Source of the DNA: Metallosphaera yellowstonensis MK1
Lineage (GTDB): Archaea; Thermoproteota; Thermoprotei_A; Sulfolobales; Sulfolobaceae
DNA: 56,992 nucleotides
Assembly (NCBI RefSeq): GCF_000243315.1
Contig: NZ_JH597761.1
Coordinates: 147,940-204,931, forward strand
Reading direction: 5' to 3'
Part shown: one piece after another, positions 6,032 to 54,607 of the stretch
Numbering within the stretch: the first letter of the stretch is position 1
Layout of the letters: each line of letters begins with the position of its first letter
Notes under the pieces: model-generated
What the model saw: the letters and a program-made list of their open reading frames with translations, nothing else
Told to the model about the DNA's origin: nothing
Database searches by the model: none
Position numbers and translations under genes: made by a program

Positions 6032-6095
6032 CAGCAGTTATTAGATTTCGCCTCGACTTCAAGGCTACACCTAACGAGAAATCCCATAACTGCTG
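6032..6095. repeat. MITE copy (64 bp)
   Basis: Starts CAGCAGTTATTAGATTTCG and ends ATCCCATAACTGCTG, so the outer 10 bp are inverted repeats. It is one of about two dozen copies in the window. Confidence 0.85.
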
Positions 6096-25710: not shown

Positions 25711-26858
25711 CAGCAGTTATGAGACTTTAACGTAACTTAAAGATTTTCATCAGCCCCAGCGGTCCGCCTAAATGACGTTCAACGGACCTGAGGAACGCCT
25801 CCACGCTCCTCAGGTTCAGCTCCCCCACCAGCTCCCTGACGACGTTGTTGATGGTGAAGATCCTGAGGTAACCCTGAAGCCCCCCAGAACGAGGAGTCCT
25901 CCAGTCCAAGGGCCTTGACGTCCCTTGGGGGGTCCTCGATCTCCCACACAACAGGCCTCCTCGACTTCCTCACTGAGCGAGAGGTCGGTCGTGTAGAGGT
26001 ACCTGGCCTGTGTCCCAGAGTCACGTTTACGTTCCTGGACTAACAACTTCACCGTAATGGCTCGGCCTCCCAGGGTCAGGTCGGCGTAGTAGACTCCGGG
26101 GGGTCTCCCACTCGGAGGTGTCCCTCCACCTCCTCGAGGGTCCCCTGGACCGACTCGACCCTGAGCTCGGTTGGACTTGAGCTCAGACACCAAGTTGTCC
26201 CTCACGAGCTTCTCGGACAGTACTGGAGTCGAAGACGACCCTGGCCACTGGAAGGACTCCTTGAGCACGTCCAACATCTCCCTGGCCAACTCGATCTCGG
26301 TCTTGAACTCGTTGACCCTCACAAATCCCACATCTTCCTCACGGCGTAGGGGAAACCGTGAACGTCCTGCCCGAGGTCCACTACGGCTACCGTGAGGAGC
26401 TTGGCCCTCTCGAACCTCCCGTGGGTGTGGCAGTAGATCCAGTAGTTCTCAGGGGCTCACGTCCCTCCCCCTGGAGCGTCGTGGTCCACGGTGTCGTCCA
26501 CGATGACGGCCACCTGACCCTTCACCAGTCTGACAGGACCTCCAGCTCCCACGCGTCGTCGAGTTCTCCCAACGCCTCCAGCAGGTTTGCGTAGTCCAAC
26601 CCGAACGTCTCGGCCGCGTTCCTCACGCTGGCCCTCCCACCTACCAAGACCATGAGGACTAGTGCCAGTTGACCTTCCTGCTCCTCCCGTTCCTCCTGAC
26701 CACGCCCAGAACCTGGTTGACCGCCTTGACCAGCCTCTCCCTAGCCAACTCGATTTGTCCCTTTCCGCATCTTTTCAGCAGGACGACGTTGAAAAATAAA
26801 AACTTCTCGCTAATACCGACTTCTTCATATTACCTCCCTAAGATTCCCATAACTGCTG
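25711..26858 (-). mobile_element. ISC1217-like IS (1148 bp), transposase degenerate
   Basis: Ends are CAGCAGTTATGAGACTTTAA at 25711 and the complement of CAGCAGTTATGGGA at the other side (26845-26858). The minus-strand transposase is split by frameshifts. Recognisable pieces run LDYANLLEALGELDD, then VAVIVDDTVDH, KLLTVAVVDLG, RYLYTTDLSLS, and end RSVERHLGGPLGLMKIFK. The length is close to that of ISC1217 of Sulfolobus, from memory; the family name needs checking. Its termini are the same as those of the short MITEs, so an active relative probably mobilised them. Part of it (26171-26204) matches a CRISPR spacer at 45149-45182. Confidence 0.72.
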
Positions 26859-26878
26859 TGAAGTAAAATATAAGCGAG

Positions 26879-32812: not shown

Positions 32813-35800
32813 CTTTCAATTCTATTTAAGATCAACGAGATAGAACTCTCCAAAGACTTGGCGAACGAACAGTTTCTTTCAATTCTATTCAAGATCAACA
32901 ATATGACCTCTTAATAGGTCCCTTTATCATGTTAAGATCTTTCAATTCTATCCAAGATCACCCCAAATAGGGAAAATCACCCCCCCATCTAGAGAATGCG
33001 TTTCTTTCAATTCTATCCAAGATCAACTCTAGATTTTGTGGTCGTGCTAGCCGGCGTGTTAGCCTTTCAATTCTATCCAAGATCAACCGGGGATTGGATA
33101 GATGAGATAACCCTCTATCACCCTCATCTTTCAATTCTATCCAAGATCAACTCGATACTAAAATTAGCCTCAGTTCGGCAATAATTGACTTTCAATTCTA
33201 TCCAAGATCAACTCAAGGTCTCGATGAGGGGAGTGACAAAGGTCGCCCCAATACTTTCAATTCTATCCAAGATCAACGTGCCGATAATCTCCGGAAACGG
33301 TGTTAGGGGGAGGTTACTTTCAATTCTATCCAAGATCAACAGATTAAGAACGTGGATCGTGTTCGGCCCCATGGACTCCCTTTCAATTCTATCCAAGATC
33401 AACGAGGAACTAGAAAAAACTGGATTCGATCTCACCGATTTCTTTCAATTCTATCCAAGATCAACAGTTCGTTCTACCACGACAGCGTGAATGACCTCAA
33501 TTTACTTTCAATTCTATCCAAGATCAACACAGGGAGAGAACTGGATGAGGTTGAGAAGAAAGTAATAGCTTTCAATTCTATCCAAGATCAACGTGGTGGT
33601 GCAGGGGGTACATATGGTGGCAATAATGGCTTTCAATTCTATCAAAGATCAACGAGATAAAACCAATAATAATCAAACTAGGAAAAATCTGTTCTTTCAA
33701 TTCTATCCAAGATCAACCAGGTTTATATTGTGTTTTAGGGCGTGGGATAGAGAAAGCTTTCAATTCTATCCAAGATCAACATAAGCGTTAAATAAGTGAA
33801 GCCTAAGCGTTGATGCGTACCTTTCAATTCTATCCAAGATCAACAAATGTGCCTTGAAGATACGATATACCCGCAGGACTAGTCATTCAATTCTATCCAA
33901 GATCAACAAAGATAAAGTCAGGAGTTTAATTTAGCGTTTACGCTCGTCTTTCAATTCTATCCAAGATCAACTCAAGGCCGGGAGAACCTCATAGAGTTAC
34001 TCTGTATCACTTTCAATTCTATCCAAGATCAACAGGAGCCCCTTTGGTGTAGGATGGGAAGATCCATTGACAACTTTCAATTCTATCCAAGATCAACGGT
34101 CCGTGGATTTGTACCGTTAAATACTAGAATTTTCATCTTTCAATTCTATCCAAGATCAACGTAATCTTAAGTCGACTCGCAAAGGAACACTATATCACAA
34201 GACTTTCAATTCTATCCAAGATCAACTTGAGATACTAGAGGAGAAAGGCGTGGTAAGGAAAGACTTTCAATTCTATACAAGATCAACATACGCAAGGACT
34301 ATTACACGATATCGGCATAGCACGTGACTTTCAATTCTATCCAAGATCAACTCTACTAATTTTGTCCAACTAGTATTAGTAATAATAAGCTCTTTCAATT
34401 CTATCCAAGATCAACCAAGTAATATACAGGTGCAAAGAAGACGGCGTAGTGCTATCTTTCAATTCTATCCAAGATCAACATAATCAGTCCACCACCGTCT
34501 CCAATCGTATCTCCACCATCTTTCAATTCTATCCAAGATCAACATGTATAATTCCTTAATGTTCGAAGCAAGCAACGAATAACTTTCAATTCTATCCAAG
34601 ATCAACGTCAATCAAGAGTGGACGATAATCGATGTATACAACAGCTTTCAATTCTATCCAAGATCAACCGAACCCGTTAGGGGCAACGGTAAACGGTGGA
34701 AGTGCAGGTACCCTTTCAATTCTATCCAAGATCAACCACAGCTGGCGCTGCTGGAGGCCAAGAAACAAGAGGAAACTTTCAATTCTATCCAAGATCAACT
34801 TTTGCATACGTGCAGGCGGAAGATGAAGAGGAGGCAAAAACTTTCAATTCTATCCAAGATCAACGCTGAGGATATGTTCTAGAACTCCAGCCTCCTCTAG
34901 CTCTTTCAATTCTATCCAAGATCAACTCCACAACTTCTTCCTGACGCTACTTTACCAGTATATGGCTTTCAATTCTATCCAAGATCAACAGGACACCTAT
35001 CACTTGGTCTTTTTGAAGGGCATAGACTACCTTTCAATTCTATCCAAGATCAACGGAATATATGTCGTGTCCGCCACTGCGCTACTATCAGTCTTTCAAT
35101 TCTATCCAAGATCAACTAGTCGGCTCCTTCGTCCCCGGGCTGGGGACATTACTCTTTCAATTCTATCCAAGATCAACTTGAATATCCCGTCACCCCCTTT
35201 GAAGCCTAACATGGGTCTTTCAATTCTATCCAAGATCAACGGCACTTCGTAATACCGAGACAAACCCTAATAATTCCTTTCAATTCTATCCAAGATCAAC
35301 TCCTTCAAGAAGTCTCAACTATCTTCAGACCAAGGTGCTTTCAATTCTATCCAAGATCAACAAATTGTTGACGTTGATAGCGATCAAGTCGGCCTTTTAC
35401 CACTTTCAATTCTATCCAAGATCAACTGAACATTACTCAACACAGACCAGGCTGATTAACGTATTCCTTTCAATTCTATCCAAGATCAACAGGAGTAATG
35501 CGTGAACTCGCCCGTCCTCACGGTAATACACTTTCAATTCTATCCAAGATCAACAAAGTACGCAAATCCCATACCAGACCGTAATACAGAACTTTCAATT
35601 CTATCCAAGATCAACCGGAGACCAGATAAGTGCGTTCATGAGAGACCCTAAAACCGCTTTCAATTCTATCCAAGATCAACATAGTCAGCGGGACAACTTC
35701 TTATGTCTATGCATTAAACGCCTTTCAATTCTATCCAAGATCAACATGAAGGAGTTACGGTGACGTTCACAGACGGTATGCTCTTTCAATTCTATCCAAG

Positions 35801-41123: not shown

Positions 41124-42011
41124 ATGGATAATATTTTGGGCGTCTTGATCATACCCATGCTCTCGCAGGCTGAGATGTTCAGGAGCCTCAGAAAGCTCCA
41201 CAGCTGGAGGTCCTCCGACCCAGTACCGGAGGAGCTCAGGGGATGGTCATACCACCGCCCTCCAGTGAGGCCAAGGTCCTACTTGGGACTGTCCATGCAC
41301 GAGGTAGCTTACCTCTATTGTCCGACCAAGAGGGACGTTTACCTCAGGAGGATCATGAAGGTCAAGGGGGACTGGGACAAGCCCCACATACAGCTTGGGT
41401 CCTTAGTTCACAAGGTCGTAGGTAGGGCCTCTAGGGACGTAGCCCTGGTAGCTCTCTCCGGTCAGGATCCAGTGGAGGCCTTCTCGTCCTTTAATCCGTC
41501 ATTGGAGTGTGGGGAGATGGAGGAGTACTGCAGGAAGCTCTACAAGTTCCTAACGCTCACGTGGCTTGCCGACACGGCCCGATCCAGGGCAGTCTACGGG
41601 GGCGAAGCCTTAGGTCTGTTCCCGTGGGTGTCTGAGATCAGGGTGGACGGATCCCTTCTTGGCCTGTCCAATAAGCTATCCATAGATGCCCTAGGTAGCT
41701 TGGCCCTGGTGGAGGTGAAGACTGGGAAGAGGGAGGATTTCCACAAGGTCGGGCTCACAGGATACGCCCTGGCGGTTGAGTCGTCCCTGGAGGTCCCCGT
41801 GGACTTCGGCTTCCTCGTCTACTTCAACGGTGTGGGGAAGGGGGAAGTGGAGGTTCAGGTTGATCCAGTCTACGTCTCTCCGGACCTCAGGAAGGAGTTC
41901 CTGGACAGGAGGGATGAGGTCGTGGACATAGTTGTCTCCCAGAGGGACCCTGGGATGCCTCCTACATGTCCTGAGGCCTGTCCGTTCTACTCCACCTGCA
42001 ACGGGAGGTGA
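41124..42011 (+). CDS. csa1: Csa1 (Cas4-like adaptation protein, type I-A)
   Basis: This 295-residue protein fits the Csa1 family, an archaeal Cas4 relative. It has an early cysteine in LYCPTKRDVYLRR, a RecB-like nuclease motif ALVEVKTGKRED, and C-terminal cysteines in CPEACPFYSTC that bind an iron-sulfur cluster together with the first. Csa1 works with Cas1, Cas2 and Cas4 in acquiring spacers. It is the first gene downstream of the array leader. A MITE separates it from cas1 (42021-42084), so its co-transcription with cas1 is less certain than usual. Confidence 0.88.
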   Translation: MDNILGVLIIPMLSQAEMFRSLRKLHSWRSSDPVPEELRGWSYHRPPVRPRSYLGLSMHEVAYLYCPTKRDVYLRRIMKVKGDWDKPHIQLGSLVHKVVGRASRDVALVALSGQDPVEAFSSFNPSLECGEMEEYCRKLYKFLTLTWLADTARSRAVYGGEALGLFPWVSEIRVDGSLLGLSNKLSIDALGSLALVEVKTGKREDFHKVGLTGYALAVESSLEVPVDFGFLVYFNGVGKGEVEVQVDPVYVSPDLRKEFLDRRDEVVDIVVSQRDPGMPPTCPEACPFYSTCNGR

Positions 42012-42020
42012 ATAATATGA

Positions 42021-42084
42021 CAGCAGTTATGGGATTTCTCGTTAGGTGTAGCCTTGAAGTCAAGGCAAAATCTAATAACTGCTG
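42021..42084. repeat. MITE copy between csa1 and cas1
   Basis: Begins CAGCAGTTATGGGATTTCTC and ends AATCTAATAACTGCTG. It carries the inner hairpin GCCTTGAAGTCAAGGC. Confidence 0.85.
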
Positions 42085-42141
42085 TAATGTGAGTTCAGGG
42101 GGCCGTGAGGGAGACCTGTTTGAGACAATGGACTCACCGGG

Positions 42142-43053
42142 GTGAACCTAGTGAGGACTCTCCTGCTCTCCGGTTACGGGTTGAAGTTGACCACCTCAGG
42201 GAGGACTTTCAGGATATCCTCCAAGGACGAGAAGAGAGACGTATCTCCTGCCGACGTTGATCAAATCTTGGTCTCCACCAGTGGGGTCAGCATTTCCTCC
42301 AGTGCGGTGAGGCTGGCCATGGATTACGGGATAGAAATAGTGTTCCTTGACGGAAGGGGGGACTGGGCCAGGCTGTTCCTCTCCAGTCCGGTAATGACCG
42401 TGGAGACCAGGAAGGCTCAGTACTCGGCGATCCTCAGGGGAGATAAGGTGGGGGAGGAGATCGTGAGGAGCAAGGTGGAGAACCAAGGAGGTCATCTGAA
42501 GTATTGGGGGAGGCAGTACGGTAAGTTGGACGATGTCAGGGGACTACCCGAGCCTCAGGCCGCGAGGCTCTACTGGTCCTCCCTCGGTTCACTCCTTCCC
42601 AAGGAGCTCGGTTTCAAGGGTAGGGACCACGACTCCCCAGACCAGGTCAACTCCTCCCTCAACTACATGTACGCCCTGCTGTATTCGGCCTGTCACAGGG
42701 AGCTCTCCCTCGTTGGACTTGATCCCTATGCCGGTTTCGTACACAAGGATAGGTCGGGGAAGGAGAGCTTGGTCTACGACTTCTCCGAGATGTTCAAGCC
42801 CTCGGCAGTGGACTTCCCCCTGTGGAGGGCCCTCCTTCAGGGAGAGAGGTTCGTCGTCAGTCAGGGGTTGTTGGACAGGGAATCCAGGAGGAAGTTGATC
42901 GCCCTGTTCAACTCGGCGATGGAGGAGCGTGTGAGGGACCTGACAGACTCTCAGACCAGGACCTTGAGGCAACACATCAGGGCCTACGCCCTGAAGCTCG
43001 GGAGCTACCTGAGGGGAGAGAGGGGTTTCAGGGGGTTCGTTCAGTCTTGGTGA
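42142..43053 (+). CDS. cas1: Cas1 integrase
   Basis: The protein has 303 residues from a GTG start. The catalytic metal ligands of Cas1 are E137 (LPEPQAARLYW), H201 (GFVHKDR) and D213 (LVYDFSEMFKP). Cas1 forms a complex with Cas2 that inserts new spacers at the leader end of the array. The length is normal. The stop overlaps the cas2 start (GTGA), so translation is coupled. It lies 57 bp downstream of a MITE. Confidence 0.95.
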   Translation: MNLVRTLLLSGYGLKLTTSGRTFRISSKDEKRDVSPADVDQILVSTSGVSISSSAVRLAMDYGIEIVFLDGRGDWARLFLSSPVMTVETRKAQYSAILRGDKVGEEIVRSKVENQGGHLKYWGRQYGKLDDVRGLPEPQAARLYWSSLGSLLPKELGFKGRDHDSPDQVNSSLNYMYALLYSACHRELSLVGLDPYAGFVHKDRSGKESLVYDFSEMFKPSAVDFPLWRALLQGERFVVSQGLLDRESRRKLIALFNSAMEERVRDLTDSQTRTLRQHIRAYALKLGSYLRGERGFRGFVQSW

Positions 43054-43328
43054 GGCTACTGGTCGTTTACGACGTTTCGGATAACGGGAAGAGGTCCAGG
43101 TTAGCTAAGGAATTGAAGAGGTTCGGGTTGAGCAGGATCCAGAGGAGTGCCTTCGCCGGGGAGGTGGATCAGCAGAGGTTCAAGGATCTGTGCAGGGCCT
43201 GCTCAACGCTGGTGGATGAGGACACGGACGTCGTCCACGTGATCCAGCTCGGCCTCAGGGACTGGGAGAGGAGGGTCGTGATAGGAGTGGAGGGAGGTGG
43301 AGAAGATGATAGAGGGTTCGTGGTTTAA
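43050..43328 (+). CDS. cas2: Cas2
   Basis: This 92-residue ferredoxin-fold protein starts at the GTG at 43050, whose bases overlap the cas1 stop. The N-terminal motif LLVVYDVSDNGKR carries the conserved Asp of Cas2. RLAKELKRFGLSRIQRSAF follows as usual. It is the structural partner of Cas1 in spacer integration. It overlaps cas4 by 23 bp. A longer frame starting upstream in cas1 is not credible. Confidence 0.92.
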   Translation: MRLLVVYDVSDNGKRSRLAKELKRFGLSRIQRSAFAGEVDQQRFKDLCRACSTLVDEDTDVVHVIQLGLRDWERRVVIGVEGGGEDDRGFVV

Positions 43329-43851
43329 CGTGTCTCTCCTCAAACAGTTGGAGTTCTGCCCTGTCATACCCTGGATCTTGGCTAGGACGGGTTACAAGGA
43401 GCCAGAGACGGTATCCCAGAGGGCAGGGAGGGAAGTTGACTTGAACAAGGTCGTTCAGAGGCTGGACCTCAAGGGCGAGGTCCTGAAGGAGGTGTTCCTG
43501 AGGGATCAGAGGTCTGGACTGTCGGGGATAGTTGACCTGATCGTCAGGGGGGAACGAGTCACGGTCGTCGAGGTCAAGGCTTTCAAGAGGGGATCATTCG
43601 GACACTTCAGGCTACAGCTCCTGAGTTACGCATACCTGGCCTACAGGACTTTGGGGAGGGCGGACAGGGCCGTCTTGTGGATAGGGGACGAGGTCGGGTT
43701 GGACATAGAGGTTAGGGAGGAGCATCTTAGGGCGGTGGAGGAGAGGTTGAGGAGGTTGAGGAGGGTGCTGGAGAGAGAGGAGCCACCACCGGTTGAGAGG
43801 GAGTGCGGGTTCTGTCAGTACAGGAGGGTGTGCCCAAGGTCCTCACCTTGA
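43306..43851 (+). CDS. cas4: Cas4 exonuclease
   Basis: The ATG at 43306 follows a GGAGG stretch and gives 181 residues; a GTG at 43297 is also possible. RecB-family nuclease motifs include GIVDLIV and VTVVEVKAFKRG. The iron-sulfur cysteines are at the start (QLEFCPVIPW) and in the C-terminal ECGFCQYRRVCP. Cas4 trims pre-spacers and selects the PAM and orientation during acquisition. It is the last gene of the adaptation operon csa1-cas1-cas2-cas4. Confidence 0.92.
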   Translation: MIEGSWFNVSLLKQLEFCPVIPWILARTGYKEPETVSQRAGREVDLNKVVQRLDLKGEVLKEVFLRDQRSGLSGIVDLIVRGERVTVVEVKAFKRGSFGHFRLQLLSYAYLAYRTLGRADRAVLWIGDEVGLDIEVREEHLRAVEERLRRLRRVLEREEPPPVERECGFCQYRRVCPRSSP

Positions 43852-43902: not shown

Positions 43903-43966
43903 CAGCAGTTATTAGATTTCACCTAGATTACAGGGCGGTACCTAAGGGAGAATCCCATAACTGCTG
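43903..43966. repeat. MITE copy with 6-bp target duplication
   Basis: Begins CAGCAGTTATTAGATTTCAC and ends ATCCCATAACTGCTG. It is flanked by TAGGTG on both sides. Confidence 0.88.
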
Positions 43967-44081: not shown

Positions 44082-44390
44082 TTTATCCGTGGCGTAACTT
44101 ACCCTTAGTCGCTTCTAATTGCTCCACCCCTCCTAAGGGCTCATTCACGGTCACCCTTAAGTCATTGGAGTTAGTCGAGGGAAACTTCGACACCCATCCA
44201 ACTTCTCCTACCCTCGTGAGCGGTGCCCGTCATCTGTTAGGAGGTCATCAAGAAAGAATTCTTGGGTACAGCTGTTATTGGAATTCGCCTAGATTGCAGG
44301 GCGGTACTCAAGGGAAAATCCCATAACTGCTGTTGGGTAATACTTCACGAACGTAACTGACGCCAAAACGATATTTATAAAATTGAAAAT
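44082..44390 (+). repeat. Diverged ~290 bp repeat, copy 4, interrupted by a MITE
   Basis: Starts ACGTTTATCCGTGGCGTAAC and contains recognisable inner segments (CTCGTGAGCGGTGCCCGTCA). It is interrupted at 44269-44332 by a MITE and resumes with CAAAACGATATTTATAAAAT. It is the most diverged copy of the family, so probably the oldest. Confidence 0.65.
44269..44332. repeat. MITE copy inside the ~290 bp repeat, 7-bp target duplication
   Basis: Begins CAGCTGTTATTGGAATTCGC and ends ATCCCATAACTGCTG. The flanks TTGGGTA at 44262-44268 and 44333-44339 are identical. Confidence 0.92.
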
Positions 44391-44395
44391 ACCGA

Positions 44396-44459
44396 CAGTA
44401 GTTATTAGAATTCGCCTAGATTACAGGGCGATACTCAAGGAAAAGTCCCATAACTGCCG
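44396..44459. repeat. MITE copy (64 bp)
   Basis: Begins CAGTAGTTATTAGAATTCGC and ends GTCCCATAACTGCCG. Confidence 0.85.
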
Positions 44460-44584
44460 ATGAGGGGTATTCACGTCGTAAAAGAGTTCCATTCTCAATC
44501 TGCCTGTTCCTCACTCCGCGCCCAATTCCCTTCCTTGTCCACGGTCAGTTGTCCTCTACCACACCCATGAGGGATGAACCTCTC

Positions 44585-44732: not shown

Positions 44733-44913
44733 GTGACGGCAGTTTCTTGGCTCTGCTCGAACCTAAAAGTTCGATCGTTCCAACTACTCTGCGAAAAGTT
44801 GTAGCGAGATTTAGGGATACTTAGGTTCGACTCTCCTTGCGTACGAAACGAAAATCGTGAGAAAAATTAAACGTATATGAACCTACCTCTCTCTTTCAAT
44901 TTGTGTAAGAGAC

Positions 44914-44961
44914 CATGCGAACAGGACCACGTAGTGCCACCGTGAGGTCCCAGTTCGCATG
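44914..44961. repeat. Strong inverted repeat (hairpin) before the small array
   Basis: CATGCGAAC at 44914-44922 pairs with GTTCGCATG at 44953-44961, and GGACC pairs with GGTCC inside it. This leaves a loop of about 17 bases. It lies about 75 bp before the small CRISPR array. It could be a structured RNA, a transposon scar or a leader element. Confidence 0.5.
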
Positions 44962-45035
44962 ACAAGTCGGGGGGGATGGTGAGAAATATTTATAAGTTTG
45001 TCCTCTTGAGTATAAGAGAGAATAAAAGTAGATCA

Positions 45036-45267
45036 GTTTCATCCTCAAAGGAACTGAAGGATCAGTAGATGTCCCTTTTGGTTAGTCATCTTCATCCTTT
45101 CACCGAGGTGTTTTCATCCTCAAAGGAACTGAAAGATTGAGGCTAGGATTGGACTTGAGCTCAGACACCACGTTGTCCGTCAGTTTCATCCTCAAAGGAA
45201 TTGGAAGTATTAGCTCTAACTTTGCTTTTAGTCTACGCTAAAGTTTCATCCTCGAATGAACTGAAGG
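45036..45267 (+). CRISPR. Small degenerate CRISPR array, 4 repeats of a different class
   Basis: Repeats at 45036-45060, 45111-45135, 45183-45207 and 45243-45267 begin GTTTCATCCTCAAAGGAACT (the third and fourth carry changes) and end GAAGG or GAAAG. The pattern parallels the other common Sulfolobales repeat class ending GGAATTGAAAG. Spacers are about 50, 47 and 35 bp. The second spacer matches the ISC1217-like IS at 26171-26204. A TATA-like ATATTTATAA lies at 44986-44995, so transcription on the plus strand is possible. Confidence 0.75.
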
Positions 45268-45284
45268 CATAAAAATAACGATTG

Positions 45285-45400
45285 ATTGCAGTTACGGGAC
45301 TTTAAAACAGCTCAAAGACTTTCATCAGCCCCAGCGGTCTGCCTCAATGACGTTTAACGAAGCTGGAGAACATCTCCACGCCCTTCGGGTTGGCAGTGTT
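45285..45400 (-). mobile_element. 3' fragment of an ISC1217-like IS
   Basis: TTGCAGTTACGGGACTTTAA followed by sequence matching the end of the element at 25711 (CTTTCATCAGCCCCAGCGGT). It is truncated after about 110 bp. Confidence 0.65.
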
Positions 45401-45430: not shown

Positions 45431-45489
45431 CAGCAGTTATTAGATTTCGCCTTGATCACAGGGCGCTAAGGAAAATCCCACAACTGTTG
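45431..45489. repeat. MITE copy (59 bp)
   Basis: Begins CAGCAGTTATTAGATTTCGC and ends TCCCACAACTGTTG. Confidence 0.8.
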
Positions 45490-45661: not shown

Positions 45662-45781
45662 TGGCAGTTATCTGACTCTCCCTTAATTGACGTCCTGTTA
45701 TCGAGGGAAGTCCAATACAGCAGTCATCAGAGTTCGCGTGGGTTGCAGGGCGGTACACGACGGGAAGTCCCGTGACCGCCG
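45662..45781. repeat. Two MITE copies in tandem, sharing an end
   Basis: The first begins TGGCAGTTATCTGACTCTCC. Its right end merges with the left end of the second (CAGCAGTCATCAGAG at 45718), which closes with CCCGTGACCGCCG at 45781. Both are diverged. Confidence 0.65.
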
Positions 45782-45789
45782 TTTAGTAA

Positions 45790-45850
45790 CTGCAGTTACT
45801 GGATTTTGCCTTGAGTTCAAGGGCATACCTGATAGAAATCATAACCACTG
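45790..45850. repeat. Diverged MITE copy
   Basis: Begins CTGCAGTTACTGGATTTTGC and ends AAATCATAACCACTG. Confidence 0.65.
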
Positions 45851-45922
45851 TACCGGCCGTGCAGGTGAGGTCTCATCCAGGGGAGGGCTCCGGCCTCCAA
45901 GGTGTAACCCATCAATACTGTG

Positions 45923-45985
45923 CGGCAGTTATGGGACTTTCCCTTGAGTATCGCCCTGTTTTCAAGGGAAATCTAATAACTGCTG
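45923..45985. repeat. MITE copy with 7-bp target duplication
   Basis: Begins CGGCAGTTATGGGACTTTCC and ends AATCTAATAACTGCTG. It is flanked by TACTGTG on both sides (45916-45922 and 45986-45992). Confidence 0.9.
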
Positions 45986-46028
45986 TACTGTGCTGGTCAA
46001 ACGAGGGCAGGTGAGCTCACCCCTCACG

Positions 46029-46631
46029 TCAGTCCAGGTACAGCCTACCCTTCCCCGTTATCCTCCCGTCGGCCACTAGACCCAGCTCCTCCAACCTCTT
46101 GAGCTTCCTCCACGCCGTCGCTTTACTGATCCCCGTGGTCTCAGCTATCTCGGTGGGAGAGGTGATCCCGTCCCTCACCATCTCAAGCACTCTCCTGTCC
46201 TCCCGGTCCAGATAAACTGGAGTCATGTCCCATATCCTGAAGGACACCTGAGTAGAGTAGTCTTCGGAGTAAACCTCTATCTCTCCGTCTATGTTGGCAG
46301 TTATCAGGCCGAGCAGGGTCTCCAGTATCACCAACCTCATTCCCCCAGAGAGGTTGACGTAGACGGGCCTCTCGGCGAAGCTCCTCACCGAGTCCCTGAC
46401 GATCTTAACCGAGCCGTAGAAGTCCTCATGGGGTAGTCTAAGTTCGTTGTACTTCAGGTTGGGCATCGCCTTGGTTAGTACGTCCAGGAGCGACGATTTG
46501 GCCTTCTCTGCCCTCGGATCCTCCTTGGAGGGCATGACTATGATGACCCTGTCCTCCTCTCGCAGGCCTCTGCTCAGAATTCCCCTGAGTGCGAAAGTCT
46601 CGCTGAATCCCAGAGTGACGAGGTATAACAT
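46029..46631 (-). CDS. csa3b: Csa3b: CARF-domain regulator of the interference operon
   Basis: The ATG at 46631 (MLYLVTLGFSETFALRG) gives 200 residues and the normal Csa3 N-terminus. The open frame upstream of it is not family-like. The CARF domain carries YVNLSGGMRLVILE and the C-terminal winged helix has TSPTEIAETTGISKATAWRKL. Csa3b is known as a regulator of the type I-A interference genes in Sulfolobus. It lies divergently from csa5-cas7-cas5-cas3'-cas3''-cas8a2, in the position usual for this repressor/activator. The 430 bp gap between them holds both promoters. Confidence 0.85.
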   Translation of the reverse strand: MLYLVTLGFSETFALRGILSRGLREEDRVIIVMPSKEDPRAEKAKSSLLDVLTKAMPNLKYNELRLPHEDFYGSVKIVRDSVRSFAERPVYVNLSGGMRLVILETLLGLITANIDGEIEVYSEDYSTQVSFRIWDMTPVYLDREDRRVLEMVRDGITSPTEIAETTGISKATAWRKLKRLEELGLVADGRITGKGRLYLD

Positions 46632-47061
46632 ATGTGAAACCTTTACTTCAAAACGAAAAAGTTTTACGAATCCCTCGGGGGTTTCCCTAAGACTTGTGCT
46701 AAGAGGGGAAGCGAAGGCAGAGGAGAGAGGTAAACATGGCGCTACAACACAGGATCCCGTCATCACGGTCTTAGGTCGCACTATGTGTCCCTCGTGGCCC
46801 GTTCAGAGGTCAGTTTCTCCAGGCTGAAACTTAAACGTCACGGTCTCCGGCGTGAGGGGAGAACTCCGTTCCGACTCCCTCAGCCTGACAACTTCCCTCC
46901 ACCACGGCGATGCTTCCCGTCTCTTATGGATGAACCAGACTGTCACGGTTTTACTAAAGTGAAACTACTGCTTCCTTTCTGAACTCTTCTCATCTAGTGT
47001 AACGGTTCATTTCTAGAAAAACAAGTTTATTAAGGTGTTCGACTACAGTATCAAGATAGCC
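46632..47061 (+). promoter_or_regulatory. Divergent intergenic region csa3b / csa5
   Basis: No gene is supported here. A TATA-like AGTTTATTAA at 47024-47033 fits a transcript starting just before the csa5 ATG at 47062. On the minus strand AAAACTTTTTCG at about 46654-46665 may serve csa3b. The purine- and T-rich tract near 46950-46975 could hold a Csa3 site, but I see no clear palindrome. Confidence 0.45.
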
Positions 47062-47487
47062 ATGAAGTCTCAAAGTCTCTCGGACTTCAGGAGAGTGGCC
47101 AACGCCCTGGCCTTGGCTGCCCTGGTGCAGGAGAGTACCACGGTCATAGATAGGATGGCTTACGCCTTGACTCCAGAACAGTCGGTGAGGGCACTCAATG
47201 ACGCCTTGAGGACGATCGCCAGCGTGTCACAGGGGTCCACCTCATTTCAGGTATCCCAGGTTCAGGTCAAGAAAGAGGAGAACACCTACACCTTCACCGA
47301 GGTGAAGGAGAGAGAAGGGAACATGAGGTACAAGATACCTGGAGGTCTACCAACCCAGGAGGAGGTGACGGACTTCATCGACGCTGTAACTGCGGACGTG
47401 AGGTTGGCCAGGAAAGTGGGGGCCGTAGCCCTGTCCCTGTACGTGAGGGCGAAGCAGGAGGTTTCTAAGGGGGAGGTTAAGTCGTGA
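47062..47487 (+). CDS. csa5: Csa5 (Cas11a), small subunit of the type I-A Cascade
   Basis: The ATG at 47062 (MKSQSLSDFRRVANALALAA) gives 141 residues. A GTG at 47035 in the same frame lies directly on the TATA-like sequence and is unlikely. The protein is mostly helical with a polar central insert (VSQVQVKKEENTYTF). Csa5 is the small subunit that helps Cascade hold the R-loop. It opens the interference operon. The stop codon region overlaps the cas7 start by 4 bp. Confidence 0.82.
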   Translation: MKSQSLSDFRRVANALALAALVQESTTVIDRMAYALTPEQSVRALNDALRTIASVSQGSTSFQVSQVQVKKEENTYTFTEVKEREGNMRYKIPGGLPTQEEVTDFIDAVTADVRLARKVGAVALSLYVRAKQEVSKGEVKS

Positions 47488-48467
47488 AGGGGTTCCTGTC
47501 AGTGTCCCTGAGGTACTTGGTCAACGTCGAGTCCCTCAACGGAGTGGAGAGCGTCGGGAACATATCCAGGCACAGGGTCGCCCCAGTGGTCCTACCTGTG
47601 GGTAAGGGCTATGCTGTGAAGTACGTCCCCGTAGTTTCAGGCGAGAGCATTGCACACGCCTACCAGTCCATCCTGGTAGAGGAGGCGATGTCTAGGAACC
47701 TCCCCGTGGGGAAGAGATCCTCAATCCGGGAGTTCATAAAGTACGCCGACGAGGGCATAGTTAAGGACGAGGGATTGACGCCCCCCTCCAAGGTTGATGA
47801 GATGAGGAAGTTTGAGGTAGACGTCATGCTCCACGACGTAATAGCGGACGTGGGGGGTTTCCTCTACGCAGGTAAGACGCCGGTGAAGAGGACTTCAGCA
47901 TTTAGCGTCAGCTACATGATCCCAGCCTACGATTCCGACTCGGAGACTGCAGCCCTCGAGGCACAATTTCACGTGAGGATGACTCCCTCCAACCCCAAGG
48001 AGGGGGGACAGATACCCTACACAGTGGAGGTGGGTTCGGCGATCTACACTCTCACCTTCAACATCGACCTGGACCACATAGCCAAACCGTCCAACTTCGG
48101 CGACCCCGTACAGGGGGAGAAGGATCTCCAGGCTCAGAGGGACAAGAGGGTCGAGGCTTCCGTTAGCTCAGCCATGAGGCTCCTGGAGAACCTCGAGTTC
48201 GGAGCTAAGAGGTCGAGGTTCTCGCCCATATTCAACCTGCTCTCCGCGGTCGTTGTTAGGACCGATAAACCCTTCTCTGCCACACCGGGTACCTATCGGG
48301 ACTACGTATTCGACACGACCGCCAGGGCGGAGAGCCTGAGGAACGAGAAGGTGCTAACCAAGGTGAAGATAGTGGCCCTGAACCCCAAGGAACAGTTGCA
48401 GATACCTGAAGGAATAACCGTGAAGCCCACAATATCCTCTGCACTGGGCGAGGCACTCAAGGAGTGA
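47484..48467 (+). CDS. cas7: Cas7 (Csa2), backbone subunit of the type I-A Cascade
   Basis: This 327-residue protein from a GTG start is of the Cas7/DevR family. It begins FLSVSLRYLVNVESLNGVES and has the NISRHR loop, which in this family binds the crRNA, and a central VGSAIYTLTFNIDLD strand. Several copies line up along the crRNA to form the spine of the Cascade complex. It lies between csa5 and cas5, with short overlaps on both sides. Confidence 0.92.
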   Translation: MKGFLSVSLRYLVNVESLNGVESVGNISRHRVAPVVLPVGKGYAVKYVPVVSGESIAHAYQSILVEEAMSRNLPVGKRSSIREFIKYADEGIVKDEGLTPPSKVDEMRKFEVDVMLHDVIADVGGFLYAGKTPVKRTSAFSVSYMIPAYDSDSETAALEAQFHVRMTPSNPKEGGQIPYTVEVGSAIYTLTFNIDLDHIAKPSNFGDPVQGEKDLQAQRDKRVEASVSSAMRLLENLEFGAKRSRFSPIFNLLSAVVVRTDKPFSATPGTYRDYVFDTTARAESLRNEKVLTKVKIVALNPKEQLQIPEGITVKPTISSALGEALKE

Positions 48468-49270
48468 AGGATTTGAAGGTCTTCGCCCTCCTCCTCAGGC
48501 TGAGGCCGAGCTGGGGTTACTCCGTCAAGGTCCCCAACACCAGTGCCTCTCAACCCTCCCTCTCCCTCCCTCCCCCCACGACGTTGGTGGGAGCAGTAGC
48601 CTACGGAGTTCTGAAACTCCAGGGGAGGGATCAGGAGACCGAGATCAGTGGGGGGAGAGTGACCAACTTCGCCGAGAAACTCTGGAGTGCCACGGTGTAC
48701 TCCGGGGCGTCGTTGAACGGGTTCGGAGCTCCCATAATGGACATCTCCAAGTACATAATAAGGATATACCAGAGGAAGACCAACAGGGATAGGCCGGAGT
48801 ATCAGCTGGGGGCAATTCCCACGGGGAAGGTATACGTCACAGGGGAGATCAGAGCCCTGTTGGGGTTCCACGAGGAGAGGCTCTCGAAGATCGTGGAGAA
48901 ATTCGACGAGGTGCTCCCGAAGGCCTCCTACCTCGTGACCAGGCTAGGGGCCAAGGAGTCCATAGTGTCGGTGGAGGAAGCGAAGTGGGGGTACTCCAAG
49001 GTCCTGGGTAGGGAAGTGGAGTTCTGTTCATCCTTTTATCAGCCCCTTCAACACTCGGTCCCCTTGGGGGGATGTGACGGACAAGGCTTCTTCTACAAGG
49101 AGACCTTCTGGGACGGCGGTTTCTTCGACGTAGGTAAGGAGAGGTGGTACCTAGTTCCAGGGGTCAGGGACAAGTACATATCCTCCCTGCGTGGAAGGTT
49201 TAAGGCAGACAAATCTTGTGAAGTCCACGAGTTCGAGGGAGAGGGATTTGTCGTCTGTGACGTTCGTTGA
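48464..49270 (+). CDS. cas5: Cas5 (Cas5a), RAMP subunit of the type I-A Cascade
   Basis: This 268-residue protein from a GTG start has the Cas5 N-terminal RAMP pattern (LLRLRPSWGYSVKVPNTSAS, then PPTTLVGAVAYGVL). Cas5 caps the 5' handle of the crRNA and anchors Cas7 and Cas8a. It overlaps cas7 by 4 bp. Its C-terminus overlaps the cas3' frame, and the real cas3' start is probably within the last 25 bp. Confidence 0.9.
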   Translation: MKDLKVFALLLRLRPSWGYSVKVPNTSASQPSLSLPPPTTLVGAVAYGVLKLQGRDQETEISGGRVTNFAEKLWSATVYSGASLNGFGAPIMDISKYIIRIYQRKTNRDRPEYQLGAIPTGKVYVTGEIRALLGFHEERLSKIVEKFDEVLPKASYLVTRLGAKESIVSVEEAKWGYSKVLGREVEFCSSFYQPLQHSVPLGGCDGQGFFYKETFWDGGFFDVGKERWYLVPGVRDKYISSLRGRFKADKSCEVHEFEGEGFVVCDVR

Positions 49271-50813
49271 CTCCCTCAGGAGCCTCAGCCCCGAGGGGAA
49301 GCCAAGGGATTTACTCCTGAGGACGGCGGAGATCCTAGACAGTTGGAGACCGGGACAAGTCGTACTCCTGACTGCCCCAACAGGTTACGGAAAGACGACA
49401 CTGTCACTCTCCCTGGCGAACGCTGTGATCTCAGGGAACAGGGAGTTGGCAGAGAGGGTGATCCACGTACTTCCCCTCAGGTCCATCGGGGACGACCTGT
49501 TCATTAAGGCGGAGAGGACCTTCCGCGGGCTTAAACCCTTCAGGAAATACGTGGGGTTACAGCACATGGGGAGAATGGACTCCCCCCTGCTGGGGAGGCG
49601 ATTTAACATAACGACCTTAGACACCTTTGTTCTATCCTTCTTCAAGCTACCTCCCTACGAGTTACACAAGGTCGTGAACAAGTACGACGCCCACTACGAG
49701 GTGTCCAGGGGCTTCATACTCTCGTCATTGGTAGTGTTCGACGAGGTTCACCTCTTCCTGACCGAGACGAAATCAGCCATAGCCTTCGTGACTTCCCTGG
49801 AGTCGTTGGTGGAGAGCAACGTCCCCGTTGTGCTGTCGACTGCCACCTTACCTGTTTCACACCTGAAGGAACTCAGGAAACGCGTTGAGGCAAAGGGCGG
49901 AGAACTCCTGGTTGTGGGTCCCAAGGCAGACGACTCCCCCAAGAGAGAAGTGAGGGTGGTGCCGTTCACTGGTGATTGGCTGGACAAGGCGAAGGAACTA
50001 TCTGAGGAGAAATCGCTCCTGATAGTGACCAACACCGTGAAGAGGGCCGTTGAGTTCTTCAAGGATCTGAAGAACGCCGGACTCTTCCCCCTGTTACTTC
50101 ACGGAAGGATGACCGAGAGGCACAGACAGAACGTCCTGAGTCGAGTCCTCGGCGAAGATAGGGCCATGAGTCCTGGGACAATCTTAGTCGCGACTCAGGT
50201 CATCGAGGCGGGAGTGGACATATCGGCAGGGAGTATGATAACTGAGGTCTCACCGGTGGAGAGCCTTCTCCAGAGGATGGGTAGGGTGGCGAGATACGAG
50301 GGGGAGAGCGGGGAGGTCTACGTCATCCGAAGCTCTGACAACGTTTACGAGGGGGAGAAGGTGGACGAGGCCTGGAAGATGGTGGAGAACGGTAAACTGG
50401 AGGTTCCGCAGGGGGACGTATTAAAGCTCGACAACTCACTGCACAGGGCTCTCTGGGAACTCCACCGAAACGTCTTCACTGGTTCAAAGACCGCCCTGAA
50501 ACTCCTGGAGGAAGAGTGCTCCTTTACCCGGAGTGGGGAGCTCATAAAGGTCGTACCGGAGGAGAGACTGGCGTCCGTGGACGAGGGAGATTACTTGGCC
50601 TTGGAGAGGGGGACCCTGAAAAGAGCAAAGGAGAAGATAGTAGGCGGGCTGAGGAGAGGACCTGAAGGAGTCGAGAGAGTGCAGTTGAGTGAAGACTTCT
50701 ATCGTATTCTTGAAGGGGGCGATCCCCCCTGCCTATCCCTATGGATGATGAGGAATAGAATAGATTCACTGGTAGTGAAAGGGTACGACGAGGAGGTGGG
50801 TTTCGTTGGGTAA
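49257..50813 (+). CDS. cas3': Cas3' helicase (type I-A)
   Basis: With the GTG at 49257 (TTG at 49248 is an alternative) the protein has 518 residues. An earlier start would overlap cas5 by 80 bp. Superfamily 2 helicase motifs are APTGYGKTT (Walker A, residues 40-48), VVFDEVHLF (DEVH, residues 162-165), STATLP, and ATQVIEAGVDI with QRMGRVARYEG in the second RecA domain. It unwinds and degrades target DNA together with the separate HD nuclease encoded next. The helicase-nuclease split is the usual arrangement of type I-A. Confidence 0.93.
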   Translation: MTFVDSLRSLSPEGKPRDLLLRTAEILDSWRPGQVVLLTAPTGYGKTTLSLSLANAVISGNRELAERVIHVLPLRSIGDDLFIKAERTFRGLKPFRKYVGLQHMGRMDSPLLGRRFNITTLDTFVLSFFKLPPYELHKVVNKYDAHYEVSRGFILSSLVVFDEVHLFLTETKSAIAFVTSLESLVESNVPVVLSTATLPVSHLKELRKRVEAKGGELLVVGPKADDSPKREVRVVPFTGDWLDKAKELSEEKSLLIVTNTVKRAVEFFKDLKNAGLFPLLLHGRMTERHRQNVLSRVLGEDRAMSPGTILVATQVIEAGVDISAGSMITEVSPVESLLQRMGRVARYEGESGEVYVIRSSDNVYEGEKVDEAWKMVENGKLEVPQGDVLKLDNSLHRALWELHRNVFTGSKTALKLLEEECSFTRSGELIKVVPEERLASVDEGDYLALERGTLKRAKEKIVGGLRRGPEGVERVQLSEDFYRILEGGDPPCLSLWMMRNRIDSLVVKGYDEEVGFVG

Positions 50814-51537
50814 ACCTTGTGCGTTCACCGGACAGAGCCTGATCTCTCACATGGAGGGGGTGGAGAAGCTGGTCAGGGAGGCCTTCGTGGAGGAAGGGTA
50901 TGCCAAGATAGTGAGGAAAAGGCTGTCCAAGATACGCCGGTCTCTCCCCCATCACCCAGACTTCCCCGAGGAAGTGGTGGAAGACGCCATAGTCCTCACC
51001 GCCGTGTCTCATGACCTAGGGAAGGCGGTGGAGTACTTCCAACGCCAGCTCACGAACGACTGCTCTGGGAGAGCGTCCTTTCACCCTCACGAGGTGTTGT
51101 CGGGAGCATACCTGATCAAGGCCGTGGCGGATCAGAGCCCGTTACTCCCCTTCATCACCACGGCCGTAATGATGCACCACCACGCCATGAGGGTACCGGA
51201 CGAGAAAACCTTGGAAAAGGCCCAGGAGGTAGTGAGGGGGGGAGGGAAGGTTGTGGGGGCTGGGGAACTCCACAAGTTCCTCTCCAGGATAAAGTCGTTC
51301 TCTTTCAAGGAAGTTGGCGAGATAACCCCCGACGACGTAGAGCAACTGCGCCTGTACATCAATCAAGTTATCAACTCGACCCCGTATACAGGTGTCCCAA
51401 CCTCCAGTTCTTTGCAAGTTTACTCGCTTTTTCTTCTTCCCCTGGTGGTCTCCGATAACCTGGACTCCACCAGGCGTGGAGATGACGAAGATAGGAGGCT
51501 CTTCATAGTCGAGTTAAAAAACATTTACGGTGATTAA
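50806..51537 (+). CDS. cas3'': Cas3'' HD nuclease (type I-A)
   Basis: The TTG at 50806 overlaps the cas3' stop and gives 243 residues. HD-family metal ligands are visible: H15 (SLISHMEG), H69-D70 (AVSHDLGKAVEYF), H95 (FHPHEVLSG) and H124-H126 (MMHHHAM). It cuts single-stranded DNA exposed by Cas3'. It is followed immediately by cas8a2, whose ATG begins at the next base after the stop codon. Confidence 0.93.
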   Translation: MGKPCAFTGQSLISHMEGVEKLVREAFVEEGYAKIVRKRLSKIRRSLPHHPDFPEEVVEDAIVLTAVSHDLGKAVEYFQRQLTNDCSGRASFHPHEVLSGAYLIKAVADQSPLLPFITTAVMMHHHAMRVPDEKTLEKAQEVVRGGGKVVGAGELHKFLSRIKSFSFKEVGEITPDDVEQLRLYINQVINSTPYTGVPTSSSLQVYSLFLLPLVVSDNLDSTRRGDDEDRRLFIVELKNIYGD

Positions 51538-52530
51538 ATGTCCCAACTCAGAGTGAAAACATTTAGTAAATTTTCTTCAGATTTAATTAAATCCTTTTTT
51601 TACTTGGTGAGTACGGGAGTTGATGGGATCGCCGAGGATAGGGGGGAGATCGTGGTGGAGGGCCCTGACCCGATGCTGGGGATCGGGGAGGCCCTCGAGC
51701 TCGTAGGGGAACTGATAGATAACGAGAGGTTACCGCTAACGGGAAATGATAAGACGAGTAAGCATTACAAGCGCATAATGGAGTGCGTCGGGTCCCCTCT
51801 AGACGCCCCCTCCAGTGACCTCTTCGTGAAGGCGTCCAAGAACTTGAGTAACGTAGTGGAATGCGGAGATGTGGAGCCCCTGGCCCTAATGAAGACCGAA
51901 TTCTACGAGGAGAGTAGGACTCCCCACTTTCAGGGAGAGGTCGAAGGGAAAGTGAACGTCTTAGGTACGATCTTAACCTTTGCAGGTTACGTTACGTGGA
52001 GGTTGGGGAGGTCAAGTAGGGAAGGGTTCAGCGTGGTCGTGACGCCACTCACACCGTGGACTATGGGGTCAGGCATAGGGGACGTAATCGTGAACTACAA
52101 GAGGAATAAAGTGAAGCTTCCCGAGAGTGCGGGGATCCCCTGGGCTTTCTCCTTATGGCTCGCAGTTCATCTACCCCTGGATTCCCCGGTCATGGTATAC
52201 CACGTGAAGGAGGGTCAGAGGATAAGCGTGAGTGGGGGCTACTTCTCGGACCTGAAGAGGATAAGGGAAGGACTCAACAAGACGTTCACAGGGAACTGGG
52301 AGAACTACCTTGAGGACGTCCTAAGGTACTCCCTAAGTAAGGACTCACCCAAGGAGGCGATCACGTTTGTCCAAAAGTTGTACGAGACCGTCAACGGTGC
52401 CCTCAGGAAGGAGGAGTTGGCCTTCAGGGGATTGAGGGATTACGCGGGATTGATAGCGAGGGAGAGCGGGGAGGAAAACGTGGTTGTCCGGGCCATAGGG
52501 AGGTTGGCGTCACTTATCTCGGTGGAGTGA
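51538..52530 (+). CDS. cas8a2: Cas8a2 (Csa4), large subunit of the type I-A Cascade
   Basis: This 330-residue protein resembles Csa4/Cas8a2 in length and position. It has a helical N-terminus (FSSDLIKSFFYLVSTGVDGI), a central FAGYVTWRLGRSSREGFSVV and a C-terminal helical bundle. The large subunit recognises the PAM and helps open target DNA. It is the last recognised gene of the operon. In many Sulfolobales operons cas6 follows, but here a MITE and then a CARF-PIN gene on the other strand occupy the next 2 kb. Confidence 0.8.
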   Translation: MSQLRVKTFSKFSSDLIKSFFYLVSTGVDGIAEDRGEIVVEGPDPMLGIGEALELVGELIDNERLPLTGNDKTSKHYKRIMECVGSPLDAPSSDLFVKASKNLSNVVECGDVEPLALMKTEFYEESRTPHFQGEVEGKVNVLGTILTFAGYVTWRLGRSSREGFSVVVTPLTPWTMGSGIGDVIVNYKRNKVKLPESAGIPWAFSLWLAVHLPLDSPVMVYHVKEGQRISVSGGYFSDLKRIREGLNKTFTGNWENYLEDVLRYSLSKDSPKEAITFVQKLYETVNGALRKEELAFRGLRDYAGLIARESGEENVVVRAIGRLASLISVE

Positions 52531-52638: not shown

Positions 52639-52702
52639 CAGCGGTTATTGGATTTCGCCTCGATTACAGGGCGAAATTTAAGGGGAAGTCCCGTAACTGC
52701 TG
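52639..52702. repeat. MITE copy (64 bp)
   Basis: Begins CAGCGGTTATTGGATTTCGC and ends GTCCCGTAACTGCTG. Confidence 0.85.
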
Positions 52703-53168
52703 TTAGAAAGTTGGCTGTCTTAACCTACCGGGAAATCGAACAACTTGAAGAGAACCAACCCAGAGCCTAACGAAGCTGACAATCTCTCGGTACCATTCGA
52801 ATGAGACGACTTTACTGGAAGGCTCCTTACCTGAGAACTGCCCTCAAATATTTTCCATGGAATGGTGACCTCCACTACGACTCACCATATAATGGAGACT
52901 AGTATGTGTTTTTTATAGATCTGCATTAAATTCATGGTGTGCCAGACTGAAGGTAAGGGAGTCGGGGCGGGGCCCCTCCCAACGACCCTCATCACACCCC
53001 CGTGTCTTGACGTGGTTGGATGTAGACTGACCGAGATGAAGATGGTCCCCGAAGTCAAGGGCCTCCTTCCGGTTACCGCTGGATCATGCTCTATTCGAAG
53101 AATAACGATCTCCCCATCGCCTACTTGATTGAGCCATTCCCTGTGGGTTACCTTTCTCAGATAATGTA

Positions 53169-53299: not shown

Positions 53300-54607
53300 T
53301 CATCCCTGAACCCATCTAACCTTGACACAGTTGTTACTCTTCTCCCAACACAGTTCAGGCCTCTCCTCGGCGCTCAACTTCTCGAGGACATAGGAGAGGA
53401 AAACCCCCAGGTTAGCCAACGCCATGGCCCTGTCGCTCTTCCTACCCTTCACGCCTCTCAAGCCGGCGAGCGTCACCCTGGCTATCTTGGACACCGGGGA
53501 TGAGGACCAGAGTTCGTAGGCCAACTTGTCTGCTGTTATCAAGTAGGCCCCGTCTAGGATGTAGGGGTCAGCCCTCGGGACGACCACGTCGCACTGCTGA
53601 AACTCGGTGGGGAGGTAACCTGAGGTCTCCCTCAGGTGGAGGGCCACCTGTAATACCAGGTGTCCAAAGAGCTTGTCGTCAGTGGCCTTGAGTATGATTT
53701 CATTTAGGACGCAGTGGGGTAGTAGGAGGTTGTTGGCCTCGTAGGTGTGGATCCCGTAGTACACTAGGTTCGTGTCCACGATGGCCCTCCCCTGTGTGAG
53801 CACGCGTGAGAGCTCTACCTCCTGATTATTGCCTTGGTTCACCTTGATCTCCTTGGTTCCGGCCAGGTTAACCAGGTTGTTGAAGAGCTCTTCAGGATTG
53901 CTCACGTTTGCGGCTATGGCGCCCACCTGCTCCAGGCACATCGTGAAGGACCTCAACGCCCCGTCGTTGAAGTCACTGTTGAGACGGCACTCGTTTAACC
54001 TGAGCTCAAGCCAGTAGTTGGGCACCGGATCCCTGTTCAGGTTGTTCAGTTTCAGGACGGTTTCTGACAGGGTCCTAACGTAACTGTTGTTGGTCTCCAA
54101 ACCGATCATGGGGATGGGGATCGTGGGGTCCTTCCAGGAGTTGATCACGCCTTGAGAGTTAAACACCAGCGGTTCCTCTGCAGTCCTCGGGACATATGGG
54201 TAGTAGAAGTTGTGCCAGGAGCCGAAACTGAAGAGGAAGTTGACTACGTAGTAGTTGGGCCTCTGTAGTAACTTCCTGGTGAGGAGAATCGTCATGACGT
54301 TGGAGGCGGGGGTGACCACGGAGTAGACCACTTCACATCTGGAGATTTCCTCGTCTATGGTCTTTTCTGTGGCCTTGATGTCGTACGCGGTCCTCTCCTC
54401 TCTCACCGTGAAATCCCTCGCCTTCTTGAGCTCGTTCAACGTCTTTCTCACCCTCTCCATGACCCACTCTGCGTGAGGGGAGAACATCAGTAAGTAGTGG
54501 TCTGGCTTAAAGAGTTCGAAGGACCTCACCAGGGAAGACATGGTGGCCTCCAAGAGGAAGTCAGATCTACTTATGGGGAGGATTACGCAGACCTTTTTAC
54601 CGGACAT
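53300..54607 (-). CDS. CARF-PIN fusion protein, candidate cyclic-oligoadenylate-gated RNase
   Basis: This 435-residue protein has two domains. Residues 1 to about 170 look like a CARF sensor: an opening strand VCVILPISRSDFLLEATMSS, and SVVTPASNVMTILLTRK (residues 96-112) where the ligand motif of CARF proteins lies. After a linker with many Asn residues, residues 273 to about 365 form a PIN nuclease: D278 (IVDTNLVYYG), E303 (VLNEI), D347 or D352 (ADPYILDGAYL) and D360 (LITADKL). PIN domains cut RNA with these acidic residues. A TATA box CTTATTAACC (minus, about 54629-54638) gives a leaderless start, right beside a MITE. No type III genes are nearby. The ligand is inferred, not shown. Confidence 0.65.
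   Translation of the reverse strand: MSGKKVCVILPISRSDFLLEATMSSLVRSFELFKPDHYLLMFSPHAEWVMERVRKTLNELKKARDFTVREERTAYDIKATEKTIDEEISRCEVVYSVVTPASNVMTILLTRKLLQRPNYYVVNFLFSFGSWHNFYYPYVPRTAEEPLVFNSQGVINSWKDPTIPIPMIGLETNNSYVRTLSETVLKLNNLNRDPVPNYWLELRLNECRLNSDFNDGALRSFTMCLEQVGAIAANVSNPEELFNNLVNLAGTKEIKVNQGNNQEVELSRVLTQGRAIVDTNLVYYGIHTYEANNLLLPHCVLNEIILKATDDKLFGHLVLQVALHLRETSGYLPTEFQQCDVVVPRADPYILDGAYLITADKLAYELWSSSPVSKIARVTLAGLRGVKGRKSDRAMALANLGVFLSYVLEKLSAEERPELCWEKSNNCVKVRWVQG

Follow-up and report, generated by a model that had tools for sequence, protein, structure and literature searches.

Self-targeting spacers directed against resident mobile elements are already known (reviewed in PMC6990116); in the cases described, spacers of a host array match transposon genes of the same chromosome, and their tolerance needs explaining. 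In an archaeal survey, which likewise recorded spacers matching transposase genes, mobile-element-associated genes taken as a group accounted for ~13% of spacer matches (PMC3285040). Very short arrays have precedents in the virus-borne mini-CRISPR arrays of Sulfolobales (PMC6858448) and in an engineered mini-CRISPR in S. solfataricus, which shares with the locus described here a short array, a possible host-mRNA target and type III machinery (PMC5068938). Here we describe a small CRISPR array of Metallosphaera yellowstonensis MK1, located in an analyzed stretch of 56,992 nucleotides (the window, C10:147940-204931) of the 2.82 Mb genome, in which spacers match the transposase of ISC1217, the mobile-element family with the most copies in this genome. 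In the literature searched, no paper connected ISC1217 with CRISPR spacers in Sulfolobus.

Table 1. Features of the small array, its cas neighborhood and the related loci; positions are those of the window except where preceded by C10.
Feature	Position	Strand	Remarks
Small CRISPR array	45036..45267	+	4 repeats, 3 spacers
Repeats of the small array	45036-45060, 45111-45135, 45183-45207, 45243-45267	+	last one degenerate
Small-array leader	44760..45035	+	TATA-like stretch AAATATTTATAAG near 44990
Spacer 1	45061..45110	+	50 nt; antisense match to the ISC1217 transposase gene at its 5' end, start codon included
Spacer 2	45136..45182	+	47 nt; matches ISC1217 transposase, antisense
Spacer 3	45208..45242	+	35 nt; without match
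Decayed ISC1217 copy	25711..26859	-	transposase frame broken; spacer-2 core at 26171-26204
ISC1217 left-end fragment	45277..45391	+	76-83% identical to IS copies
Adaptation genes csa1, cas1, cas2, cas4	41124..43851	+	Pfam PF06023, PF01867, PF09827, PF01930
Csa3-type regulator	46029..46781	-	PF22662, E 2e-35
Type I-A interference genes csa5, cas7, cas5, cas3', cas3'', cas8a/csaX	47035..52530	+	
Large array M	C10:212480-215877	-	52 spacers, same repeat type as small array
Large array P	C10:221208-224287	+	47 spacers, same repeat type as small array
P47, leader-distal spacer of P array	C10:224213-224262		50 nt; matches 5' end of ISC1217 transposase with gaps

The small array is a genuine, leader-bearing array of the host's own system. 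Its four direct repeats belong to the GTTTCATCC family and enclose three unique spacers, and the repeat itself (GTTTCATCCTCAAAGGAAYTGAARG) is the same as in the two large arrays 20-30 kb away (M and P). A conserved leader lies on the proper side of the array: over the 230 nt before the first repeat, 214 positions (93%) are identical to the leaders of both large arrays, which are divergently arranged and have leaders identical to each other over 300 nt. The genome carries type I-A, type III-D and adaptation genes. The small array is placed between the adaptation genes on one side and the Csa3-type regulator with the I-A interference genes on the other, the III-D locus, with its Cas10, lies just beyond the window edge, and both the I-A and the III-D loci look complete. 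A second csa1/cas4/cas1 set sits between the P and M arrays (C10:212480-224287). The small array, located in the first cas locus, carries the M/P repeat and not that of its 126-spacer neighbor array. An Rfam search around the array gave no match, and its repeat was not found in congeners.

The window holds other defense-related features. An ORF of the CARF-PIN type at 53300-54607 (PADLOC, E 7e-161) probably encodes an accessory nuclease of type III. In the 126-spacer array, the spacer listed first (32837-32875), which is probably the oldest there, agrees at 23/28 positions with a transposase-like ORF (28364-29419, minus strand), a weak match (E 0.005) that is possibly due to chance. The PADLOC candidate defense family PDC-S01 is matched by two ORFs, 8316-9587 and 24263-25549, the latter directly before the decayed ISC1217 copy of the window.

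ISC1217 is present in about 30 near-complete copies and further fragments. Transposase matches number ~200 across the genome, among them seven complete genes of ~354 aa each, and an intact copy matches PF04693 ('Archaeal putative transposase ISC1217', DDE_Tnp_2; E 6e-108). Terminal inverted repeats with the ends CAGCAGTTAT/ATAACTGCTG could be read in the sequence. The majority of copies are fragmented, and small deletions are common among them. Many short elements (~60-75 bp) with ISC1217-like ends, CAGCAGTTAT...ATAACTGCTG, crowd the region of the small array and are probably MITEs; such elements were seen at 42021-42084, 43903-43966, 44269-44333, 44396-44460, 45431-45489, 45718-45782, 45790-45851 and 45923-45987, as well as at 6032-6095 and 52639-52703.

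We screened 228 spacers from four arrays against a subset of the genome's ISC1217 copies. Three spacers matched, with spacer 2 reaching 57.5 bits, spacer 1 reaching 45.1 bits and P47, at the leader-distal end of the P array, reaching 34.3 bits. Control ceilings were 29.7 bits among 4560 shuffled spacers and 26.6 bits for reversed spacers, and the other 225 of the 228 spacers stayed at background level against the ISC1217 copies. The preliminary description had reported spacer 2 only, and the matches of spacer 1 and P47 to the same transposase extend it. A genome search with the whole P array, at an E cutoff of 0.001, matched CRISPR arrays only; the partial IS match of P47 lies below the sensitivity of that search. 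Spacer 3 had no match among IS copies, phages or plasmids.

Spacer 2 carries the strongest of these matches. Its last 34 nt occur exactly at 18 genomic places, the array itself and 17 others, and at 63 places including the array (62 elsewhere) if up to three mismatches are allowed, compared with none for a reversed control pattern. Identity of 34/34 at 17 places, together with a score of 57.5 bits against a shuffle maximum of 29.7, places this self-match beyond chance. Read by eye, the complement of spacer 2 encodes TDNVVSELKSN-PSLN where the IS has TDNVVSELKSN-RRLLR. Spacer 1 is 87% identical to ISC1217 over 38 nt, and its complement, which covers the transposase start codon, reads MTNQKGH where the IS has MTNRKGQ (by eye). 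P47 includes the GKGQIEL region near the 5' end of the transposase (by eye), although its alignment is gapped and weaker than the other two. We considered whether spacer 1 and P47 could be one duplicated spacer and rejected this by inspection, as they cover the same IS region but have different ends.

The agreement between 45149-45182 and 26171-26204, with exactly two mismatches, stands as first described, and so does the derivation of a spacer in a real array from the ISC1217 transposase of the same genome, now backed by the leader, the repeats and the 17 further exact places. The copy in the window is not the best match of spacer 2. Its two mismatches had been taken as possible escape, for which they are poor evidence, because this copy is decayed, the family is large, and all 34 nt recur without change at 17 other places; the meaningful mismatches lie instead in the PAM-proximal 13 nt of the spacer.

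It had also been suggested that the match could be an accident of IS decay. In a related reading, the spacer-2 segment would not be a spacer at all but a piece of IS caught among stretches that resemble repeats. The surroundings lend this some color, as an ISC1217 end piece begins only 10 nt past the last repeat and the region is rich in short IS-derived elements. The spacer-2 segment, however, is internal to the IS rather than an end, stops exactly at the repeat, and is not collinear with the neighboring IS piece in the order expected from the IS; moreover, leader and repeats are conserved, and two other spacers match the same IS. We regard a trapped fragment as the least credible of the explanations considered here, with hardly any chance of being correct.

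The three IS-matching spacers are unusually long (50, 47 and 50 nt, versus a mean of 40.1 nt, SD 3.2, in the M/P/small-array repeat family). In a test picked with the data already in view, three given spacers would all rank in the top six by length out of 102 with a probability of ~1e-4. The small array has many repeats of the variant AACTGAA, whose one other location is the old end of array P, where it adjoins P47, a distribution that suggests that these spacers may be old.

In type I systems, the leader-proximal (PAM-proximal) end of a spacer is the seed side. Against the best IS variant, spacer 2 was matched at 40/47 positions, with mismatches at positions 1, 2, 3, 7, 10, 11 and 13, so that all seven fall within the leader-proximal 13 nt (p = 3e-5). 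The self-match is therefore partial, at best 40/47, and does not run through the seed. Similarity had been described as reaching further left with small gaps; we found it to be weak, the first 13 nt (ATTGAGGCTAGGA) agreeing at 3/13 positions with the window copy when aligned ungapped and at 6/13 with the best variant. A tabulation covered 47 distinct contexts, all of which differ from spacer 2 in its first 13 nt, again with 6/13 as the best. Spacer 1 likewise has an excess of mismatches within its first 9 nt (post hoc p = 0.006), and P47 is divergent from ISC1217 over its first 17 nt. Since tens of targets would hardly all mutate together, the divergence more likely arose in the spacer or in its source copy than through target escape.

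We consider it likely, though by no means certain, that these spacers are an old IS-derived CRISPR memory that is tolerated owing to mismatches between the seed and the resident copies. An ISC1217-type transposase gene would have supplied two of the three small-array spacers, and one more, P47, would have been kept in a sister array, at its old end, as memories of an IS family of which the chromosome now has many copies. With the resident copies mismatched at the PAM-proximal end, I-A cleavage would probably be unlicensed and the cell would survive. We infer that crRNAs are produced from the small array, that cleavage is blocked by the mismatches, and that the spacers came from an IS variant or decayed copy absent today.

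The border within spacer 2 is abrupt, passing from 34/34 identity to 6/13, and this also fits a different origin, in which spacer 2 was captured across a junction in a rearranged IS copy, such that its first 13 nt were never IS and no evolution of the seed took place. ISC1217 relatives of ~60% identity have conserved the motif SNRRLLRV, or one close to it, which makes the SNPSLN of spacer 2 unusual, and small deletions are frequent among IS copies. No junction of this kind was present in the genome at up to three mismatches, however, the divergent 13-mer matched the host's own genome only at background level and gave no source, and the divergence of spacer 1 is more gradual. Such a chimeric capture deserves to be taken seriously as an alternative, if an unlikely one. 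Searches for a source elsewhere were negative as well: full-length spacer 2 had no match at up to three mismatches in 40 relatives, its junction 23-mer and core 21-mer had no exact match in viral contigs, and the small array had no match among phages and plasmids. Among genomes of bacteria and archaea, a junction 21-mer gave a single match, which was dismissed as chance, as the similarity stops at the edge of the pattern.

Candidate PAM flanks disagree. The preliminary description had pointed to CCN, the PAM of related species; the flank at the best IS variant is CCT in the ungapped alignment, while three viral protospacers of spacers from the sister arrays, which are of the same repeat family, are flanked by ACT, TCA and TTT, with no single motif common to these sites. 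The virus matches of the spacers are to Yellowstone isolates.

For Sulfolobales, a match has been called significant if its mismatches number 10 or fewer in total and two or fewer at positions 3-7 (PMC4390879). Spacer 2 falls just within these bounds at the CCT-flanked best variant, so that by sequence alone interference there is conceivable, a point against tolerance by seed mismatch. The spacers could then be active in I-A DNA interference, the host surviving by repair or target loss, and the decay of the IS, whose copies are mostly fragmented, could be partly CRISPR-driven. A dozen or more targets per chromosome would, however, be expected to be lethal, and the survival of the host with that many sites argues that no efficient cutting takes place. 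In addition, many of the examined copies retain the 34-nt target undamaged, and fragmentation centered on the target was not established. Active interference thus appears very improbable. An inactive array or an inactive I-A system would account for survival equally well as the seed mismatches.

Each of the three spacers reads antisense to the mRNA of the transposase, and two of them lie at its 5' end, one over the start codon. Given the Cas10-bearing locus near the small array, type III-D-loaded crRNAs might pair with this mRNA and silence ISC1217 at the RNA level while sparing the chromosome from I-A cleavage; engineered type III silencing of an endogenous mRNA works in S. solfataricus (PMC5068938). 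Three antisense orientations would nevertheless arise by chance in 1 of 8 cases, and spacer 1 and P47 match poorly. Moreover, the flank of the spacer-2 target is unpaired with the repeat-derived handle (by eye), and type III should therefore license DNA attack there too. Orientation, the 5'-end position of two spacers and the presence of the machinery make RNA-level silencing possible, yet we think it improbable. Still more doubtful is a combined scheme in which the mini-array would be kept as a transposon silencer, its old antisense spacers acting through III-D and their diverged seeds sparing the chromosome from I-A. The reading we favor remains an old IS-derived memory tolerated through seed mismatch.

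Self-targeting spacers are a standing puzzle, and the three described here share a pattern, being long, antisense and diverged at the seed end. They offer a testable case for the coexistence of CRISPR with a rampant IS family, whether through tolerance by seed divergence or through control at the RNA level. Spacers that target transposases and spacers that target their own genome are both known; what stands out here is that three of them form a seed-divergent set. Relative to the self-targeting cases reviewed in PMC6990116, three spacers in two arrays here match one IS family of tens of copies and diverge at their leader-proximal ends. The archaeal survey took matches singly, with few self-matches known (PMC3285040), whereas here one family is matched three times in one genome. 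The mini-CRISPR of S. solfataricus was designed (PMC5068938), whereas the present array is natural and known from its sequence. Finally, it differs from the virus-borne mini-arrays (PMC6858448) in lying on the chromosome, within a cas locus and behind a leader of its own, and in being directed at an IS where a competing virus would be the expected match.
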